Of a stretch of DNA of 64,000 nucleotides, positions 1,906 through 19,185 are shown one piece after another (the stretch's first letter is position 1; each line of letters starts with the position of its first letter). A program made the translations under genes and the position numbers. The DNA comes from Anaerocolumna cellulosilytica (GTDB lineage Bacteria > Bacillota > Clostridia > Lachnospirales > Lachnospiraceae): assembly GCF_014218335.1 (NCBI RefSeq), contig NZ_AP023367.1, positions 4,087,501-4,151,500 on the forward strand, read 5' to 3'. The notes under the pieces were generated by a model, which did not search any database, was not told where the DNA came from, and saw nothing but the letters and a program-made list of their open reading frames with translations.

Positions 1906-1909
1906 CTAA

Positions 1910-1980
1910 GCGCGAGACGGGATTCGAACCCGCGACCCTCGCCTTGGCAAGGCGATACTCCACCACTGAGCCACTCGCGC
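1910..1980 (-). tRNA. tRNA-Gly (GCC)
   Basis: A 71-nt cloverleaf reads on the minus strand. The acceptor arms are GCGCGAG and CTCGCGC, the D-arm contains GGCTCAGTGGTGGAG, the anticodon loop is TTGCCAA with anticodon GCC, and the T-arm is CGGGTTCGAATCCCG. No CCA is encoded. Its sequence is identical to the copy at 18230-18300. It has its own consensus promoter. Confidence 0.97.
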
Positions 1981-12304: not shown

Positions 12305-12363
12305 GAAAACCTAAATATCATGAATAAGCTCTGAAAAAGAGCGATAAAAATGAGAAATAAACA
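12305..12363 (+). pseudogene. C-terminal remnant of a tyrosine integrase (copy B)
   Basis: The segment aacctaaatatcatgaataa matches the 3' end of the integrase at 18.1 kb (aacctagatattatgaataa) and continues with divergence and a premature stop. TGCACAT-type repeats, a terminator and a 19-bp tRNA-Gly 3' end follow in the same order. It is the leftover right end of an element that occupied the tRNA before the present one. Confidence 0.65.
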
Positions 12364-12395
12364 GTACACATACGCTGCACATATCTGCACAACAA

Positions 12396-12424
12396 AAAAT
12401 CCCTTGAAAATCAAGGGGTTTTTT
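12396..12424. terminator. Element-end terminator, copy B
   Basis: The arms AAAATCCCTTGA and TCAAGGGGTTTT surround three A residues. It is homologous to the hairpins at 1879 and 18199 and now lies stranded beside a tRNA fragment. Confidence 0.75.
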
Positions 12425-12426
12425 AA

Positions 12427-12445
12427 GCGCGAGACGGGATTCGAA
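12427..12445. repeat. attL: 19-bp copy of the tRNA-Gly 3' end
   Basis: GCGCGAGACGGGATTCGAA is identical to the first 19 plus-strand bases of the tRNA genes at 1910 and 18230, then diverges. This is the direct repeat expected when an element integrates into the tRNA 3' end, and it fixes the left boundary of the mobilizable element. Confidence 0.85.
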
Positions 12446-12557: not shown

Positions 12558-14258
12558 CTACATTTCTTCTGGGCATTCAATGCCTAATAATGACATAGAG
12601 TCGCTAATTACTTTTTGTACTGCATTAACTAAGACTATTCGAGATTTCCTAATTTGATCATCAGCTGATAAAATTCTACATTCATGATAAAATTTATTAA
12701 ATAAGTTGGAAAGAGTATAAGCGTATCTTGCGATGATACACGGCTCGAACTTAACAGCCGCATCTTTAACAATATCGGGATATAATGCTAACTTTTTGAC
12801 TAATTCATAACTAATGTCATCTGTTAAATATGTTAAATCAACATCAGTATTATCAATATGTGATTTACGTAATATGCTTTTAGAACGTGCATAAGTATAT
12901 TGGATATATGGTGCTGTCATACCATCAAAATTCAAAACATCATCCCATTTAAAATGAACATCTCTAATAAGTTGATTAGATAAATCGTGAAATATTACTG
13001 CGCCTATTCCAATTTTTTTAGCGGTGTTAATTTTATCTTTTAAATCTGGATTTTTTTCTTGAATAGCATTCAGGGCTCTTGATACAGCTTCATTTAAGAT
13101 ATCTTCAGCATATATTATATTACCTTTTCTGGTTGATAATTTTTCACCATCCATACTTACAAGTCCATATGGGATATGGTATAAATCATTTGCCCATTCA
13201 TATCCCATCAATTCGATAGCTTTAAATACTTGTGAAAAATGAAGCTTTTGTTCCATACCTGTCACATAAATACACTTTTCAAAATTATATGTTTGCTTGC
13301 GATATAAAGCAGCAGCTATGTCACGAGAATGATAAATTGAGCTTCCATCTTTCTTCGTAATTAGGCAAGGTGACATACCATATTCATCTAGACTGATAAT
13401 ATTAGCTCCTTGACTTTCCACAAGAAGTTTCTTATCTTTTAATTCCGAAACAAGAGCTGGAACTTTGTCCATATAAAAGCTTTCGCCTACATAAGAGTCA
13501 AATTCAATATTAAGCATCGTGTATACGCGTTCATATTCTATTAGACTGATGTCTTTGAACCACTGCCATATTGAGAGAGCTTCCTCATCACCATTTTCCA
13601 TTTTAGCAAACCAATCTCTTGCTTCATCATTTAGCGCGGGACTTTTTTCTGCCTCATGCCCGAATTGAATATAAATGCGTAGAAGCTCTTCAATCCCATT
13701 TTCTTCAACCATTTTTTTATTGCTCCACTTTTTATATGCAACAATTAATTTCCCAAATTGTGTACCCCAATCACCTAAATGATTAATACGAACTACTTTA
13801 TATCCTAATTTACTGTATATTTTAGAAAAACTATTACCTATTAATGTGGTTCGTAAATGACCTACATGAAAATTTTTGGCGATATTAGGAGATGAATAGT
13901 CCATACATATAGTTTTACCACTTCCAATATCTGATGAGCCATAGGAAACATTAAAAACATCTGCAATAATTTGATTTATGAAATATATCCTATCAATAAA
14001 TATATTTAAATATCCATTCACTGCTTTTACATCAGAAATCATACTGTCATTATTATTATCCTTTAAATGAGTGCACAGTTCTTCTGCAATTATTTTAGGA
14101 CTCTTTTTTAACATTTTTGCTAAAGTAAAACATGGTAGCGAAAAATCGCCTAATTCAATATTTGATGGGATTTCAATATAACACTCTGTATCGGGTAATG
14201 AAATGCCATAAATATCTTGTATACCAATTTCGATTAAATTAACAACTTTCTGCTTCAT
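12558..14258 (-). CDS. argS: Arginyl-tRNA synthetase carried by a mobile element
   Basis: This 566-residue class I synthetase charges tRNA-Arg. Seen are the ArgRS additional N-terminal domain (residues 1-~105), the HIGH-equivalent HVGH at 131-134 within SPNIAKNFHVGHLRT, the DWGTQFGK segment, the KMSKS-equivalent EKLSTRKGN, and the all-helical DALR anticodon domain ending at the C-terminus. It is full length and apparently intact. It lies inside the tRNA-Gly element and is preceded by an Arg-codon leader peptide and terminator, so it should be induced by shortage of charged tRNA-Arg. It may be a second, resistance-type copy; whether another argS exists outside the window cannot be seen. Confidence 0.93.
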   Translation of the reverse strand: MKQKVVNLIEIGIQDIYGISLPDTECYIEIPSNIELGDFSLPCFTLAKMLKKSPKIIAEELCTHLKDNNNDSMISDVKAVNGYLNIFIDRIYFINQIIADVFNVSYGSSDIGSGKTICMDYSSPNIAKNFHVGHLRTTLIGNSFSKIYSKLGYKVVRINHLGDWGTQFGKLIVAYKKWSNKKMVEENGIEELLRIYIQFGHEAEKSPALNDEARDWFAKMENGDEEALSIWQWFKDISLIEYERVYTMLNIEFDSYVGESFYMDKVPALVSELKDKKLLVESQGANIISLDEYGMSPCLITKKDGSSIYHSRDIAAALYRKQTYNFEKCIYVTGMEQKLHFSQVFKAIELMGYEWANDLYHIPYGLVSMDGEKLSTRKGNIIYAEDILNEAVSRALNAIQEKNPDLKDKINTAKKIGIGAVIFHDLSNQLIRDVHFKWDDVLNFDGMTAPYIQYTYARSKSILRKSHIDNTDVDLTYLTDDISYELVKKLALYPDIVKDAAVKFEPCIIARYAYTLSNLFNKFYHECRILSADDQIRKSRIVLVNAVQKVISDSMSLLGIECPEEM

Positions 14259-14283
14259 AGTTATCTCCTTCTATTATAATAAT

Positions 14284-14328
14284 AAAAAAAGAACCATAAT
14301 AGAATTCAAATTCCTTCTATTACGGTCC
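14284..14328 (-). terminator. Attenuator terminator directly upstream of argS
   Basis: On the minus strand, GGACCGTAATAGAA pairs with TTCTATTATGGTTC and is followed by seven T residues, 26 bp before the argS start codon. Its location between the leader peptide and argS makes it an attenuator. CGGTTACTG just upstream can pair imperfectly with the terminator 5' arm (CAGGACCG) as an antiterminator. Confidence 0.85.
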
Positions 14329-14368
14329 TGTATATTAAGTGCCATATATCAGTAACCGCACAGAAACA

Positions 14369-14423
14369 AGATGTAAACCTTGCAACCATGCGATTAATAG
14401 CTTAGTTACAAGAGGTTACATCT
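14369..14423 (-). promoter_or_regulatory. Leader stem overlapping the leader-peptide end
   Basis: AGATGTAACCTCTTGTAAC, which encodes the last residues of the leader peptide, is largely complementary to GGTTGCAAGGTTTACATCT downstream. A ribosome stalled at the Arg codons would block this stem, whereas one finishing translation would also cover part of it. The exact exclusive structures were not resolved by eye. Confidence 0.6.
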
Positions 14424-14462
14424 GCATCTGCGTCTTAAACAATTACTAATAATATGACTCAT
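14406..14462 (-). CDS. 18-residue Arg-rich leader peptide of argS
   Basis: A strong ribosome site (GGAAAGGAAG) precedes an ATG opening the peptide MSHIISNCLRRRCRCNLL and a stop. Four of its codons are arginine (AGA, CGC, AGA, AGA), concentrated in RRRCR. It lies ~25 nt after the predicted transcription start and is followed by paired segments, a terminator and argS. This is the layout of ribosome-mediated attenuation responding to the charging level of tRNA-Arg. The Cys codons are interspersed, so a Cys response cannot be excluded. Confidence 0.8.
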   Translation of the reverse strand: MSHIISNCLRRRCRCNLL

Positions 14463-14490
14463 AGTATCTTCCTTTCCAATTATTAGGGTT

Positions 14491-14519
14491 ATCTTATCAG
14501 TTAATCTAAATATTGTCAA
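14491..14519 (-). promoter_or_regulatory. Promoter of the argS leader
   Basis: TTGACA and TAAGAT on the minus strand are separated by 17 bp. Transcription should start near 14484, just ahead of the leader-peptide ribosome site. Confidence 0.85.
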
Positions 14520-14702
14520 GAAAATATCTTTTCTTTTTTGTTTTACGTAGATTTTATTCGTATCTTGATGGGTTATGTTCGTAATCTTTTTCATAGAATG
14601 GTCGTTATTATCATCTATAAGTTTATCGTAATGAGTTACAATATTCAAAGTAAACACCTCCTTAAATTCACGTTTATCAACCTCAACGACTTGGAAGTTG
14701 TA

Positions 14703-15233
14703 TTACTTTACTACTTCGAAACATTTTTTTGTGTATTTAATAAAATTGGTAATATTACTTAGTATTCCTTTATGTAGCTTATCACTGGTTTCAATTGCAA
14801 GCTTGAATTGTTCTTGTGTAATATCATTCTTTTCCAGTGCATCTTCCAGTTCATCCATATCATCTACAATTATTTTTCCATCTGGATAAACTACCAAATC
14901 CAAATACAAATCATCAAAATATGGTACTCCATCTATTTTAACTCCTTGTGCTGCTATCATATCTATGTACCACAAAATAATTTCTTCCTTTTCATTCATC
15001 ACTGCGGTAATACAATACCAATCATTTTGTGGTAAAATTGACATCCATTTTATACCCTTATCACAAACAACGATATCCTCCCCGTTGAATTTCCATACTT
15101 GTGCTTCATTTACTTCTCGAATTTCAACAAGTCCAATATATCCTGTAACCAGTTCAGAATCCACCTTACATCCATGCAACACTTTAGCTAGTATACAGTT
15201 CCATTCATCATATGATAGTCTACTTCTTTTCAT
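14703..15233 (-). CDS. DUF402 family protein (Ntdp/FomD-like)
   Basis: The 176-residue protein carries a DUF402 core: WYCITAVMNEKEEIILWYID, PYFDDLYLDLVVYPDGK, then DDMDELEDALEKNDITQEQ. Known DUF402 proteins hydrolyse nucleoside di/triphosphates (Ntdp) or CMP-fosfomycin (FomD) with divalent metals bound by acidic residues such as those in YLDLV and IVDDMDELED. I start it at MKRSRLSYDEWN because GGGGG lies just before that ATG; the longer frame has no ribosome site. It is cargo of the mobile element, upstream of argS but with separate transcription. Its substrate is unknown. Confidence 0.82.
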   Translation of the reverse strand: MKRSRLSYDEWNCILAKVLHGCKVDSELVTGYIGLVEIREVNEAQVWKFNGEDIVVCDKGIKWMSILPQNDWYCITAVMNEKEEIILWYIDMIAAQGVKIDGVPYFDDLYLDLVVYPDGKIIVDDMDELEDALEKNDITQEQFKLAIETSDKLHKGILSNITNFIKYTKKCFEVVK

Positions 15234-15530
15234 TGATATCCCCCATAACTTCAAATTTTTAAGTAAACTCATAAATCATAATACCATATTGATAAAAATA
15301 ATTAAATAAAATTTTCCAATAATCTGGATACACCTTTTATAAATGTGTATCTCCTACACTTTCTAAAATTGTGTACACTTTATTCCGAGTAAAAAATTAA
15401 ATTCAATCGAGTAGCCTTAAAAGCAATGAAATAATAAAGATGCTATACCTTGTGAAGCTTAAATGATAATGGAATAGGCTATACCTATGAATAATCCCAG
15501 ATGATAAGCTGGAGAATACAACGAAGGTCC

Positions 15531-15767: not shown

Positions 15768-16836
15768 ATGGCAAACGTTTGCATTGTAAAACATCAAGGA
15801 TACATAAAATCAAAGATGCGATTTCCGTTCCAACATAATTTTAGAATGTTGAAAAACTACGGAAACAAGAATGTCGATGCATCACTCGCCCATCTTAACA
15901 CCTGTATAGTGAATAATCTTAAAGATGGAGAGACCTATCTCACTGCGTTCTATCGTCTGTATCCCAGATATGATAATATTATCTGCCACTGTACATCGTG
16001 ATGAAATTTTTCGACCTCAGGATGAGGAAATGAAAGCTCTCTTTCCAGAAGGTAAGGTAACACCACATATGCATGTGATTGCAATACCCATAGTCTATGA
16101 TAAGAATAAAGAGTACAAGAAAATTTCCATTACAGAATTGTGGAAAGGGAAATTTAGCTATCGTAAATTCAAAGATTATATGTACAATGCAGTCGGCAAA
16201 GAGTATGGCTTTGACCGTGGTGAGATGCATAATTATGGTGAAGCTGAAAAACATTTGGAAGTAGAAGCTTTTAAGATAAAGGAAGCAAAGAAATCTTTGA
16301 ATAATCTCAAAGAAGAAATGAGGATTAGGGAACAGAGGCTAATGGAACAAGCAAAAGAATTAGAGCCAGAAGAACATATATCAGTCTTTAACATTAACAA
16401 TGTAGTAGAGCAGCAAAAAGCTATCAACTTTGCATTGAAAATGGATAAGGATAAGAATGCTCTACTACAGAAAGAAAAAGAAAGCCTAAATCAAACAATA
16501 AAAGATAAGGACGAATTAATTCTTGCCCAAAACCATGAAATTCAAAATAGGGATGAAAAACTCTTTGAAATAAAGAAAGAGCTGTCACTAGAAAAGGAAA
16601 AGACTAATGATATATTGAATATCGAAGTATCAGATGAAAGCCTGCGACAGATTTATCTTGATGAAGCAAAGCAGAAAGTCAAATTGTATGACCGCATGGT
16701 AAGAATTATTAAAGACTTCTTACCAGAATTAATAAAGGCATCGCCTAAATTCATTCGTGAATTATTGGATAATAAGATTCTCCACAAAGAAGATTTACCT
16801 GGGAGACACGAGAACAATCGCCATAAAGGCATATAA
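15768..16836 (+). pseudogene. MobV-family relaxase, frameshifted and internally shortened
   Basis: AAAGGAGG precedes ATG and an N-terminus typical of Pre/Mob proteins (MANVCIVKHQGYIK). The frame ends after 77 residues. A second, overlapping frame continues with the metal-binding relaxase motif (ATVHRDE, then TPHMHVIAIP), a KFKDYMYNAVGKEYGFDRG segment and a long coiled coil (LEVEAFKIKEAKKSLNNLKE onward) to the stop. The distance between the N-terminus and the HxDE motif is shorter than usual, which suggests deletion plus frameshift. MobV proteins nick oriT for conjugative mobilization. Confidence 0.8.
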
Positions 16837-16936: not shown

Positions 16937-18167
16937 ATGTTAAATAATGATAAGACATTGAAAGAAGCAATTAATAATGGTATCCTAACAGTATCAGAAG
17001 TGGATGATATGTTAAAGATGACACGAAAAAAATTAGTAGAACAAAAGCATCCATATGCAATTAACAGCCGTACTAACGGCAGAGTAATCACCACAGTAAG
17101 GGAGGATGGCAAGCTTAAACAAATATCTGCAGTAAGCATGGATGACATGATTGATAAGCTATATCTATTTTACTTTGAGAACAAGAAGAATCTTACCTTA
17201 AATGATTTATTCCCGAAATGGAAAGAAGAACGTCTACAGGACAAAAGCCTTAATATTAAAACTGTCCGACGTGACAATGAGCACTGGAATAAATATTACA
17301 AAGACCATTCCATTATTCAGGTACCGATATCGAAGTTAACAACCAAAATGTTGAATGATTTCTTTAATGCGACCATCACAAAATTTAATCTCTCTGGCAG
17401 AGAATACAACAACATGAAAAGTATCATGATTGCGCTGATGAGGATTTCTATCGATGAAGAGATTATTATGGAAAATCCAATGAATGGAATCTATATCAAG
17501 TCAAAACTCCGTTCTGTAAGAAAAAAGAGTGATGGCTCGAAACTGTATCTTAATGATGGATTCGATACTTTAGATATAATCTGGAAGAAGAAAATACAAT
17601 AGAAGCATTATGTATCCAGCTTATGTTCCAGATTGGTGACCGAATTGGTGAGAATGTTGCGCTTAAATTCTCTGATATCGAATATGGAAAAATAGCGATT
17701 CAAAGGATGGAAGAAAAGGGACTTGTCTTTGATGGAGAAAACTTCAAGAGTGCCGGTGTCCAGATAGTGGAACATCTGAAAAAGGAAAACGATTCGGAGT
17801 ACCGCTTTATCTCTCTTACTGATAAAGCAAAGGAAATCATCAGTAAAGCCAGAAAACTTAATCCTGATGGCGAGTTTATCTTTGAAAGAAATGGGGAACG
17901 ATTGACTGCTAGAGCAGTAACTTACTGGCTATGGAAATATTGCAGAGATGCAGGAATTACGTACAAGAGTCCTCATTGTACAAGAAGAACTACTGCAAGT
18001 CGTTTGAGTACAGAAGGAATGCACTTGATAAGATAAGGGATATGCTTGGACAGGTCGATGAAAGTACTACGCTAGGTTACATTTATAACCCCAATACAGA
18101 GCAAGAGAACCTAGATATTATGAATAAGGCGCTGAATCGTAGCAATAAAAAGAGCCAGAAAAACTAG
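16937..18167 (+). pseudogene. Tyrosine site-specific integrase, two frameshifts
   Basis: Three overlapping frames together encode one integrase. The N-terminal part (LTVSEVDDMLKMTRKKL onward, arm-binding and core-binding regions) stops at 17602. The catalytic part resumes a few bases later with QIGDRIGENVALKF (catalytic Arg) and PHCTRRTTASRL (H-x2-R). A second 1-base shift near 18020 leads to LDKIRDMLGQVDESTT and the tyrosine nucleophile in LGYIYNP. The first shift is in an A-rich run. Its 3' end abuts the attachment site. It should catalyse integration into tRNA-Gly if repaired. Confidence 0.88.
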
Positions 18168-18185
18168 TGCACATATGATGCACAT
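18168..18185 (+). repeat. Two TGCACAT repeats phased by 11 bp, copy A
   Basis: TGCACAT starts at 18168 and 18179, immediately after the integrase stop codon. The positions relative to the gene end, terminator and tRNA are the same in all three copies in the window. Probable integrase or accessory-factor binding sites at the element end. Confidence 0.6.
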
Positions 18186-18198
18186 ATCTGAAAAAAGA

Positions 18199-18226
18199 AA
18201 AATCCCTTGAAAATCAAGGGATTTTT
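18199..18226. terminator. Element-end terminator, copy A
   Basis: AAAATCCCTTGA and TCAAGGGATTTTT form a 12-bp hairpin with A and T runs on both sides. It serves both the converging integrase gene and the tRNA-Gly transcript. Confidence 0.85.
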
Positions 18227-18229
18227 AAA

Positions 18230-18300
18230 GCGCGAGACGGGATTCGAACCCGCGACCCTCGCCTTGGCAAGGCGATACTCCACCACTGAGCCACTCGCGC
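18230..18300 (-). tRNA. tRNA-Gly (GCC), second copy, integration target
   Basis: Identical over 71 nt to the copy at 1910-1980, anticodon GCC. Its 3'-terminal 19 bp form the right attachment site of the mobilizable element, so integration has left the gene intact. It keeps its own promoter. Confidence 0.97.
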
Positions 18301-18368: not shown

Positions 18369-18630
18369 CAGTAATTTGCATAATTTTTTATTTAATATAT
18401 TTTTTTTGTATAATTGACACATTTCCCCTCTTCCATTTTTTTGTAAATTTTACTTGAAATATGTCTTAATTAAATATATAATACTATTAGTTTTTCTAGT
18501 AATTATAACTATTTTTCTACATAATCAGAAATATTGACATTTTTAAATTTATTCCGCGACATTTTGCATCCAAGCTCTTGCAAAATAGCCAATATTTATT
18601 AGTAAAATCAAAAGAAAATAATATGTAAAA

Positions 18631-18699
18631 GGCAAACCTGTTAAAAGGCAGGGACGCAAAGCCACGGGCCTAAAGCTATGCTATGGCAGCCGGGTTGCC
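18631..18699 (+). promoter_or_regulatory. Cyclic di-GMP-I (GEMM-I) riboswitch aptamer
   Basis: The P1 ends GGCAAACC and GGGTTGCC pair. Inside are the conserved GGCAGGGACGCAAAGCC block with its GNRA-type tetraloop receptor arrangement, ACGGGCCTAAAG, and ATGGCAGCCGGGTTGCC. This matches the GEMM-I class that binds cyclic di-GMP. GCCATG at the 3' edge of P1 can pair with CATGGC of the following terminator. Ligand-stabilised P1 would therefore favour termination, so I infer an OFF switch. Confidence 0.93.
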
Positions 18700-18714
18700 A
18701 TGATGCTAAGATAA

Positions 18715-18855: not shown

Positions 18856-19185
18856 ATGAAAAAATTTAGCATTAAAATTGAAGGTGCTACTCTTAAAATT
18901 GTATTAGATGGTGCTTTTGGTGATGAAGACATTGAGGCCTACGGAAAAGAGTATGGAGCAGCCATTTCTAAAATCAATCCAAACCAGTTTACACTTGAAT
19001 TGGATGCCAGAAATATGGGTGTAATTACCCCTGACAAACATGAGAAATTAAAGCAGTTTTTTTTACTTTACAAGCAACAAGGCTTCAAAACCGTAACACT
19101 TCGTATTCAGGACAGTGCCATATTATCCATGCAAGTAAAAAGGCTTGCAAAAGAAGTTGGAATTAATGACTTTAGAATTCTGTAG
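18856..19185 (+). CDS. Small STAS-like protein, first gene of the c-di-GMP-controlled operon
   Basis: This 109-residue protein alternates strands and helices (FSIKIEGATLKIVLDG, FTLELDARNMGV, HEKLKQFFLLYKQQ, TVTLRIQDSAIL, VKRLAKEVGI) in the order of a STAS/anti-sigma-antagonist fold. The match is by pattern only, and no phosphorylatable SpoIIAA-type serine motif is obvious. AAAGGAG precedes the ATG. It is co-directional with the KAS III-like gene 57 bp downstream. It may be a regulatory or scaffold partner; function unknown. Confidence 0.75.
   Translation: MKKFSIKIEGATLKIVLDGAFGDEDIEAYGKEYGAAISKINPNQFTLELDARNMGVITPDKHEKLKQFFLLYKQQGFKTVTLRIQDSAILSMQVKRLAKEVGINDFRIL

Follow-up and report, generated by a model that had tools for sequence, protein, structure and literature searches.

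The argS2 locus and its leader region

Within a stretch of 64,000 nucleotides of the chromosome of Anaerocolumna cellulosilytica (Lachnospiraceae; RefSeq assembly GCF_014218335.1, contig NZ_AP023367.1, positions 4,087,501 to 4,151,500; hereafter the window), we analyzed a gene for an arginyl-tRNA synthetase (ArgRS), here called argS2, together with the leader region in front of it, which contains the parts of a transcription attenuator (Table 1). The open reading frame (ORF) of argS2 is intact, and its product is full-length against the argS model TIGR00456 (513 bits, cut-off 262), carries HVGH as its HIGH-type motif and is predicted from its sequence to charge tRNA-Arg. The ratio of non-synonymous to synonymous substitutions (dN/dS) is 0.10 against the nearest relative found, and 0.05–0.10 in five of six pairs (one of the five near saturation), the sixth pair being saturated. 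The host genome (G000; genomes and loci carry our G and L numbers) is a single contig of 5.43 Mb that holds another argS as well (G000:C1:2820922-2822553), 31% identical to argS2. As in the case of drug-resistant accessory synthetases, argS2 is an extra, divergent copy beside a housekeeping gene.

The leader peptide contains four Arg codons (AGA CGC AGA, then AGA), and the RNA downstream of it can pair in alternative ways. A short ORF with a run of cognate codons and an intrinsic terminator before the gene are both present, as in an attenuator. A general terminator scan missed the terminator, probably because its loop is longer than the scan allows. No T-box sequence or Rfam T-box match was found in the argS2 leader, and Rfam gave nothing above threshold there; sub-threshold matches to Plastid-psbM and the trpB motif (E 0.07 and 0.52) were taken as chance. 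The promoter proposed in the initial annotation has similarly placed −35-like boxes in relatives (judged by eye); as a scan of the window was no richer in such sites than shuffled DNA (30 found, 33 expected), the call rests on location and on these relatives.

Table 1. Features of the argS2 locus, of the surrounding element and of a related leader in the same chromosome (window positions unless a contig is given).
Feature	Position	Strand	Remarks
Promoter-like site TTGACA-17-TAAGAT	14491..14519	(-)	TG before −10; called from position and relatives
Leader peptide ORF MSHIISNCLRRRCRCNLL	14406..14462	(-)	18 aa; ATG at 14462, stop ends 14406
Segment 1	14404..14423	(-)	covers the final leader codons with the stop; partner is segment 2
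Segment 2	14369..14392	(-)	pairs with segment 1 or segment 3
Segment 3	14350..14370	(-)	partner is segment 2, or segment 4 in the antiterminator
Segment 4	14321..14330	(-)	serves as 3' arm of the antiterminator and 5' arm of the terminator
Terminator 3' arm and T run	14284..14298	(-)	arms 14329-14321 / 14298-14290; before argS2
argS2, accessory ArgRS	12558..14258	(-)	open frame, 566 aa, intact
Direct repeat, left copy	12356..12445	.	90 nt, 87% identity to right copy
DUF402 protein	14703..15272	(-)	inside element, upstream of argS2 leader
Relaxase gene remnant	15768..16836	(+)	in two overlapping frames, of which the second matches MobV weakly (below cut-off)
Tyrosine integrase gene	16937..18167	(+)	interrupted frames
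Direct repeat, right copy	18159..18248	.	last 19 nt = tRNA-Gly 3' end
tRNA-Gly (GCC), integration target	18229..18300	(-)	gene at which the element integrated
Ile-rich leader, own genome (L207)	G000:C1:4279916-4280088		other loci: L171, L176, L180, L183, L185, L209, L210

Conservation, copy number and folding of the leader

A recognizable Arg leader was present in 26 of the 89 loci compared (the window copy and 25 relatives), four of the 89 having too little upstream DNA to judge. The attenuation unit described in the initial annotation, an 18-aa peptide with four Arg codons, paired segments and a terminator, is present in the window, and peptide and helices are conserved in these 26 loci. The peptides follow the consensus ..NSLRRRxRRKLL, in which the position behind the first Arg run is taken by C, D, E, Q, V or F and the two Leu at the C-terminus are mostly retained; at the N-terminus there is no conservation. 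An Arg run occurs in all 26 aligned leaders, which were selected for having one, and the Arg codons vary between AGA (86), CGT (24), CGC (22), CGA (2) and AGG (2).

Pairing was tested in the alignment of these 26 loci (A1) against 500 shuffles. Helix 1:2 is paired in 97.7% of cells, 5 of its 17 pairs contributing 9 doubly changed cells, and helix 2:3 in 99.0%, with 3 doubly changed cells in 2 of 12 pairs; on the cell values, no shuffle was as high for helix 1:2 (on either value) or reached those of helix 2:3. The terminator is paired in 97.9% of cells and shows no double change. Mutually exclusive helices with covariation are hence present when judged by cells, the pair counts being weaker. 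A covariance model (R1) finds further copies; since peptide and helices are conserved in 26 sequences as well, the leader is beyond chance. A class-wide search of 391 genomes returned the host genome itself and one weak match (35 bits, L105), which has no leader peptide and was taken as chance. Upstream of argS2 relatives, a broad T-box pattern matched 2 of 85 regions (L030 and L035, neither leader-bearing), four more regions being too short for the test; a first pattern, which matched none of 45 loci, was discarded as too narrow, as it would miss the motif of loci L150 and L156.

The leader goes together with a second argS. With all samples pooled, an argS of the other type (type 1) is also present in 27 of 28 leader-bearing genomes, vs. 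none of 18 leaderless ones. Among 200 genomes of the family, 20 contain a type-2 argS (called at an identity of at least 55%), five with a leader and a type-1 argS and 15 leaderless, with the type-2 gene as the sole argS. Of 29 genomes reached through the loci, 19 have a leader with a full-length argS2, 18 of these also a type-1 argS (in pieces in G205); four are leaderless, with the argS2 relative as their only argS, and six have short argS2 fragments and type 1. Four more genomes of the genus (G374, G805, G806, G814) contain leader, argS2 and type-1 argS. One leaderless genome is common to both samples (G221 and G025, same coordinates), giving the pooled total of 18, and G306 (leader and argS2) stands outside the second-argS count.

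In an ArgRS tree, 24 leader-bearing rows form one clade (support 100/99), with 19 leaderless Lachnospiraceae rows as its sister (100/98); four archaeal loci, 7 of 11 type-1 rows, proteins below 480 aa and loci L145-L148 had been left out. The position of the locus is not shared within the genus. That argS2 is merely the ordinary housekeeping argS of its genome, sole and vertically inherited, would match the leaderless sister clade, whose enzymes are the only ArgRS in their genomes; the second argS of the chromosome and the position of the locus, not common within the genus, leave this reading practically no room. The initial annotation had suggested a search for a second argS and an ArgRS tree; the result that it named as refuting, a sole argS of vertical phylogeny, was not obtained.

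Leaders also occur without an intact gene. Among 36 Arg-leader loci inspected (two of which, L090 and L037, are apparently one genome), argS2 lies downstream in 30, a remnant in four (L046, L056, L092, L165) and nothing of it in two (L098, L101), which indicates that argS2 also gets lost. Loci L164 (G806) and L165 (G815) have the same surroundings, with argS2 intact in G806 and mostly deleted, leader kept, in G815; this looks like a recent loss. The host genome itself has an orphan Arg leader, MLSLTLSQLRRRDRRKHL, with a terminator at 2.35 Mb (L101, G000:C1:2353872-2354043), from which argS is gone and 3' of which lies a BlaI/BlaR1-like pair with an apparent promoter of its own (by eye). Short matches to the C-terminal part of ArgRS (L046, L053-L056, L058) were at first regarded as possible small tRNA-binding proteins, an idea that was dropped; leader and terminator survive at L046 and L056, which are therefore deletion remnants, this status being less certain for L053, L055 and L058, and L054 ends at a contig end. 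A metagenome genome labelled Paenibacillaceae (L009) has an argS2 very close to that of Lacrimispora, and the label may be wrong.

These observations make it likely that argS2 is an accessory ArgRS under ribosome-mediated transcription attenuation, induced when Arg-tRNA is undercharged. With plentiful Arg-tRNA, the ribosome would reach the leader stop and cover segment 1, leaving segments 2 and 3 to pair, so that the antiterminator is disfavoured and the terminator ends transcription. With scarce Arg-tRNA, it would stall at the AGA-CGC-AGA run and leave segment 1 free to pair with segment 2; segment 3 could then join segment 4, letting RNA polymerase read into argS2. ArgRS2 could in this way maintain charging under inhibition of the housekeeping ArgRS or under a shortage of arginine. 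That the attenuator works like this in the cell we infer from its parts and from folding of RNA masked as by a ribosome. In these sampled folds, the mask covered the RNA up to 13 nt beyond the A-site codon's first base, and the transcript ended behind segment 4. In all 26 leaders, helix 1:2 forms and helix 2:3 does not when the ribosome sits on the first codon of the Arg run; when it is at the stop codon, where segment 1 is covered by construction, helix 2:3 forms. The antiterminator is higher on stalling in 25 of the 26 (mean 0.91 vs. 0.30 at the stop; 0.33 without ribosome, in the truncated RNA).

Several results weigh against this model. Helix 3:4 is paired in 92.9% of cells of A1 with no double change, and all 500 shuffles are as good; the numbers of doubly changed pairs are reached by 51 of 500 shuffles for helix 1:2 and 31 for helix 2:3. 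In a wider alignment (A4, below), the pair counts are matched by 229 of 500 shuffles for helix 3:4 and 146 for the terminator. In the masking folds, the antiterminator stays at 0.77 or above at the stop in L004, L006, L009, L011 and L056 and is absent in either ribosome state in L018; a coarser initial estimate for the ribosome at the stop was 0.57. Full-length equilibrium folds form the terminator in every ribosome state (mean 1.00), so the switch must be kinetic, decided while RNA polymerase moves. As to copy number, no second argS was found in G207, which has leader and argS2, and the contrast may go back to one event, as leader-bearing and leaderless ArgRS form two sister clades.

A remnant element and the scattered placement of argS2

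The initial annotation placed a full-length argS inside a tRNA-integrated mobilizable element. The gene is intact, and direct repeats at the 3' end of a tRNA-Gly gene enclose integrase and relaxase genes, as in an integrative mobilizable element; both these genes have interrupted frames, the relaxase match falls below the cut-off, and we therefore regard the element as a decayed remnant. Positions 12305-12328, before the left repeat, resemble the end of the integrase gene (18105-18128); an integrase-3'-end-like sequence together with an attachment site (12305-12445) suggests stacked insertions at the tRNA-Gly gene. Concerning an empty integration site, a long matching flank was seen in a single relative, G805; the match there covers sequence to the right of the tRNA only, and no tRNA was found in the fetched stretch.

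In L003, from a Herbinix metagenome genome and the nearest relative found, only positions 12559-14538 match (86% DNA identity), that is, promoter, leader and argS; for five other frames of the element there was no match in L003 or the other loci. Surroundings of approximately 14-17 kb were compared at nine places: the window, the orphan leader, G024, G374, G805, G814, G806 and G815 within the genus, and G127 outside it. Apart from argS, only G806 and G815 match at length (10.9 kb), all other pairs sharing less than 400 nt, and no neighbouring family occurs in more than 9 of 22 contexts, the clusters being unannotated. This scattered placement would fit repeated transfer with some vertical descent. 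Elsewhere in the window, a second tRNA-Gly (GCC) gene lies at 1909-1980 (-), with an Rfam score equal to that of the integration target, and a c-di-GMP-I (GGC) riboswitch at 18622-18703 (+), right of the target and upstream of a small protein frame at 18856.

Related leaders with other codons and the possible role of ArgRS2

The model R1 also matched a locus in G030 (34 bits), where the leader MNFLSVNKLNRDDDR precedes a gene for aspartyl-tRNA synthetase (AspRS). Models built with this and further members (R2 and R3) found more loci; R3 matches below approximately 35 bits, mostly uninspected, are counted nowhere. Leaders with DDD, picked by eye, were collected at 30 loci in 30 genomes, and AspRS lies downstream in all 30 (29 by script, L201 by eye). 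Behind them, the archaeal-type enzymes L109 and L120 are aspartate-tRNA(Asn) ligases according to NCBIfam, and L107 and L113 are of the bacterial type. In 9 of 15 Asp-leader genomes checked there is a second, archaeal-type AspRS (at least 50% identity), the leader of G279 being on the bacterial-type gene; five further ones (G115, G173, G317, G362, G378) contain another weak match with a frame of approximately 600 aa, which we take for a bacterial-type AspRS from its length, without a family model. In G030, one of the 15, no second AspRS was found.

A third version, Ile-rich (3 or 4 Ile in 15-18 residues), precedes the ATPase gene of an ABC transporter in eight genomes of the genus, the host included (Table 1), with scores of 35-92 bits under R3, whose training set includes one of these loci. 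The ATPases are 61-80% identical to that of L207, only the first 115 residues matching in G805 (L209). At L207, an ABC2_membrane_6 permease follows, and the best NCBIfam match of the ATPase, below cut-off, is drrA. As the Ile codons form no fixed run, the signal sensed by this leader is uncertain. The chromosome contains the class at least four times: the Arg leader of the window, the orphan Arg leader, the leader of the ABC operon and an Asp leader (L189), whose terminator, as judged by eye, lies further away. None of seven class members reached the gathering score of an Rfam family. Leads at this stage are a leader ending in NGNNN before a methylthioadenosine/adenosylhomocysteine nucleosidase gene in G048 (L117) and weak matches (38-39 bits) before an acetyltransferase gene in G417 and G090 (L202 and L203; tested in G417, by eye in G090), followed in G417 by a phosphorylase-family gene.

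In the alignment A4 (12 Asp, 1 Ile-rich and 6 Arg leaders), there are 14 doubly changed cells in 5 of 10 pairs of helix 1:2, 11 in 2 of 6 pairs of helix 3:4 and 27 in 5 of 8 pairs of the terminator; no shuffle of 500 reached the cell value of any of the three, and 20 reached the pair count of helix 1:2. Column 149 takes part in both helix 3:4 and the terminator, and in most rows it changes jointly with its two partners. Masking folds of the Asp and Ile leaders gave weaker support than those of the Arg leaders, with the antiterminator higher on stalling in 8 of 13 and lower in 2.

These versions bear on another reading of the Arg leader, as an arrest peptide that senses a ribosome-targeting drug by its basic tail without counting Arg codons. 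R-x-R runs can stall macrolide-bound ribosomes, and the largely conserved C-terminal Leu pair would agree with such a function. The Asp class, however, has DDD in place of the Arg run and AspRS downstream in all 30 chosen loci, the N-termini of the leaders are not conserved, and the C-terminal codons are also constrained by pairing with segment 2, so that we consider an arrest peptide improbable. It is possible, if still somewhat speculative, that the leaders form a modular, re-codable attenuator family of Lachnospiraceae, in which each codon run would report the failure of one particular synthetase and turn on a rescue module to match, be it a spare synthetase (Arg, Asp), the ABC transporter behind the Ile-rich leader, or perhaps the acetyltransferase or nucleosidase. 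Such a family would amount to an inducible layer of defence against synthetase-targeting antibiotics, its codons telling which synthetases are under natural attack.

Within the attenuation model, a narrower proposal is that ArgRS2 is a drug-tolerant copy of the target, induced when a natural inhibitor blocks the housekeeping ArgRS. We put this forward tentatively, at somewhat under even chances. It would agree with the scattered placement of argS2, in which only G806 and G815 of the nine surroundings match, with promoter, leader and argS being common to the window and Herbinix as one block, and with switches of this class standing also before spare AspRS genes and before an ABC operon with an ATPase closest to drrA (below cut-off). 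The enzymes differ as well: Y-H-S-R-D is found in 26 of 28 leader-bearing enzymes vs. Y-A-T-R-D in 18 of 19 sister enzymes, the remaining two leader-bearing ones having Y-P-S-R-D and Y-P-T-R-D, and fixed differences between leader-bearing and leaderless ArgRS fall at 9 positions, two of them, picked after the fact, at 310-311. The motif aligns with yeast Tyr347-x-x-x-Asp351, and we take Y-x-x-x-D to be arginine-binding and near the arginine site, a role for which our literature search found no paper. Against drug tolerance, no inhibitor or producer cluster was identified, no search having been aimed at either, the change from T to S is mild, and two leader-bearing enzymes deviate. If the proposal holds, natural inhibitors of ArgRS and AspRS met by these bacteria are still to be found, and the leaders would be ready-made biosensors for them.

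As the switch senses undercharged tRNA whatever the cause, ArgRS2 might instead serve in arginine-poor settings without any drug, through a higher affinity for arginine or better rejection of look-alikes, and, judging by record titles, 10 of 21 leader-bearing loci stem from the gut of deer, sheep or buffalo. We hold this to be rather unlikely: no widely recurring neighbour appears in the counts given above, although their clusters are unannotated for arginine metabolism, and the occurrence of such switches on a spare AspRS and a transporter suits a drug theme no less well. Cleavage of tRNA-Arg by a nuclease toxin would stall the leader too, and argS2 could be an answer to it. An extra ArgRS is of no obvious help against cut tRNA, however, the window is without a tRNA-Arg gene, a Pfam scan of eight proteins of the window showed no toxin (no search aimed at toxins was made), and the Asp and Ile-rich versions would be left unexplained; we regard a toxin response as very improbable.

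Drug tolerance of ArgRS2 would have parallels. TrpRS1 of Streptomyces coelicolor is an auxiliary, indolmycin-resistant enzyme under attenuation, likewise a spare synthetase beside a housekeeping one and induced by stalling at cognate codons; argS2 concerns another amino acid and phylum and lies on mobile DNA, its resistance being only putative. IleRS2 of the MupA type is a drug-resistant (mupirocin), mobile synthetase. Like it, argS2 is extra, divergent and mobile, but it stands behind an attenuator, and here too resistance is putative.

As for the switch, attenuators have been predicted on trpS2 and leuS of Streptomyces (PMC1262725). With these and the trp and his leader attenuators, the present class shares a cognate-codon ORF, exclusive helices and an intrinsic terminator, and the Streptomyces cases also precede synthetase genes. 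It differs from the classical attenuators in its Arg or Asp codons, in one scaffold common to different codons, and in its place before accessory synthetases and a transporter operon. His leaders in Firmicutes, one of which is proposed to have moved with its operon, regulate by leader-peptide attenuation too, but stand on histidine biosynthesis operons, not synthetases (PMC9413887). Among the matches listed in a search of the open-licence literature, none described a leader peptide before argS or aspS, a second ArgRS, or synthetase attenuators in Clostridia or Firmicutes; nor was any precedent found, in Rfam or open-licence papers, for accessory synthetases behind Arg- and Asp-codon attenuators that have one scaffold with changing codons.

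In this genus, the T-box riboswitch also controls synthetase genes in response to tRNA charging (the spare argS of G810 and G813; one AspRS here); the argS2 leader differs in having no T-box match, and its sensing would go through translation of a peptide. Spare argS genes of the genus thus carry either an Arg leader or a T-box, two sensors for seemingly one job. In G810 (L156) and G813 (L150), the gene behind the T-box motif is a different second argS, 33% identical to the query, and both enzymes have Y-P-L-R-D at the position of the motif. T-box motifs also precede archaeal-type AspRS genes in the host (L125, G000:C1:1383000-1384100) and in G036 (L130), which are distinct from the attenuator-bearing ones.

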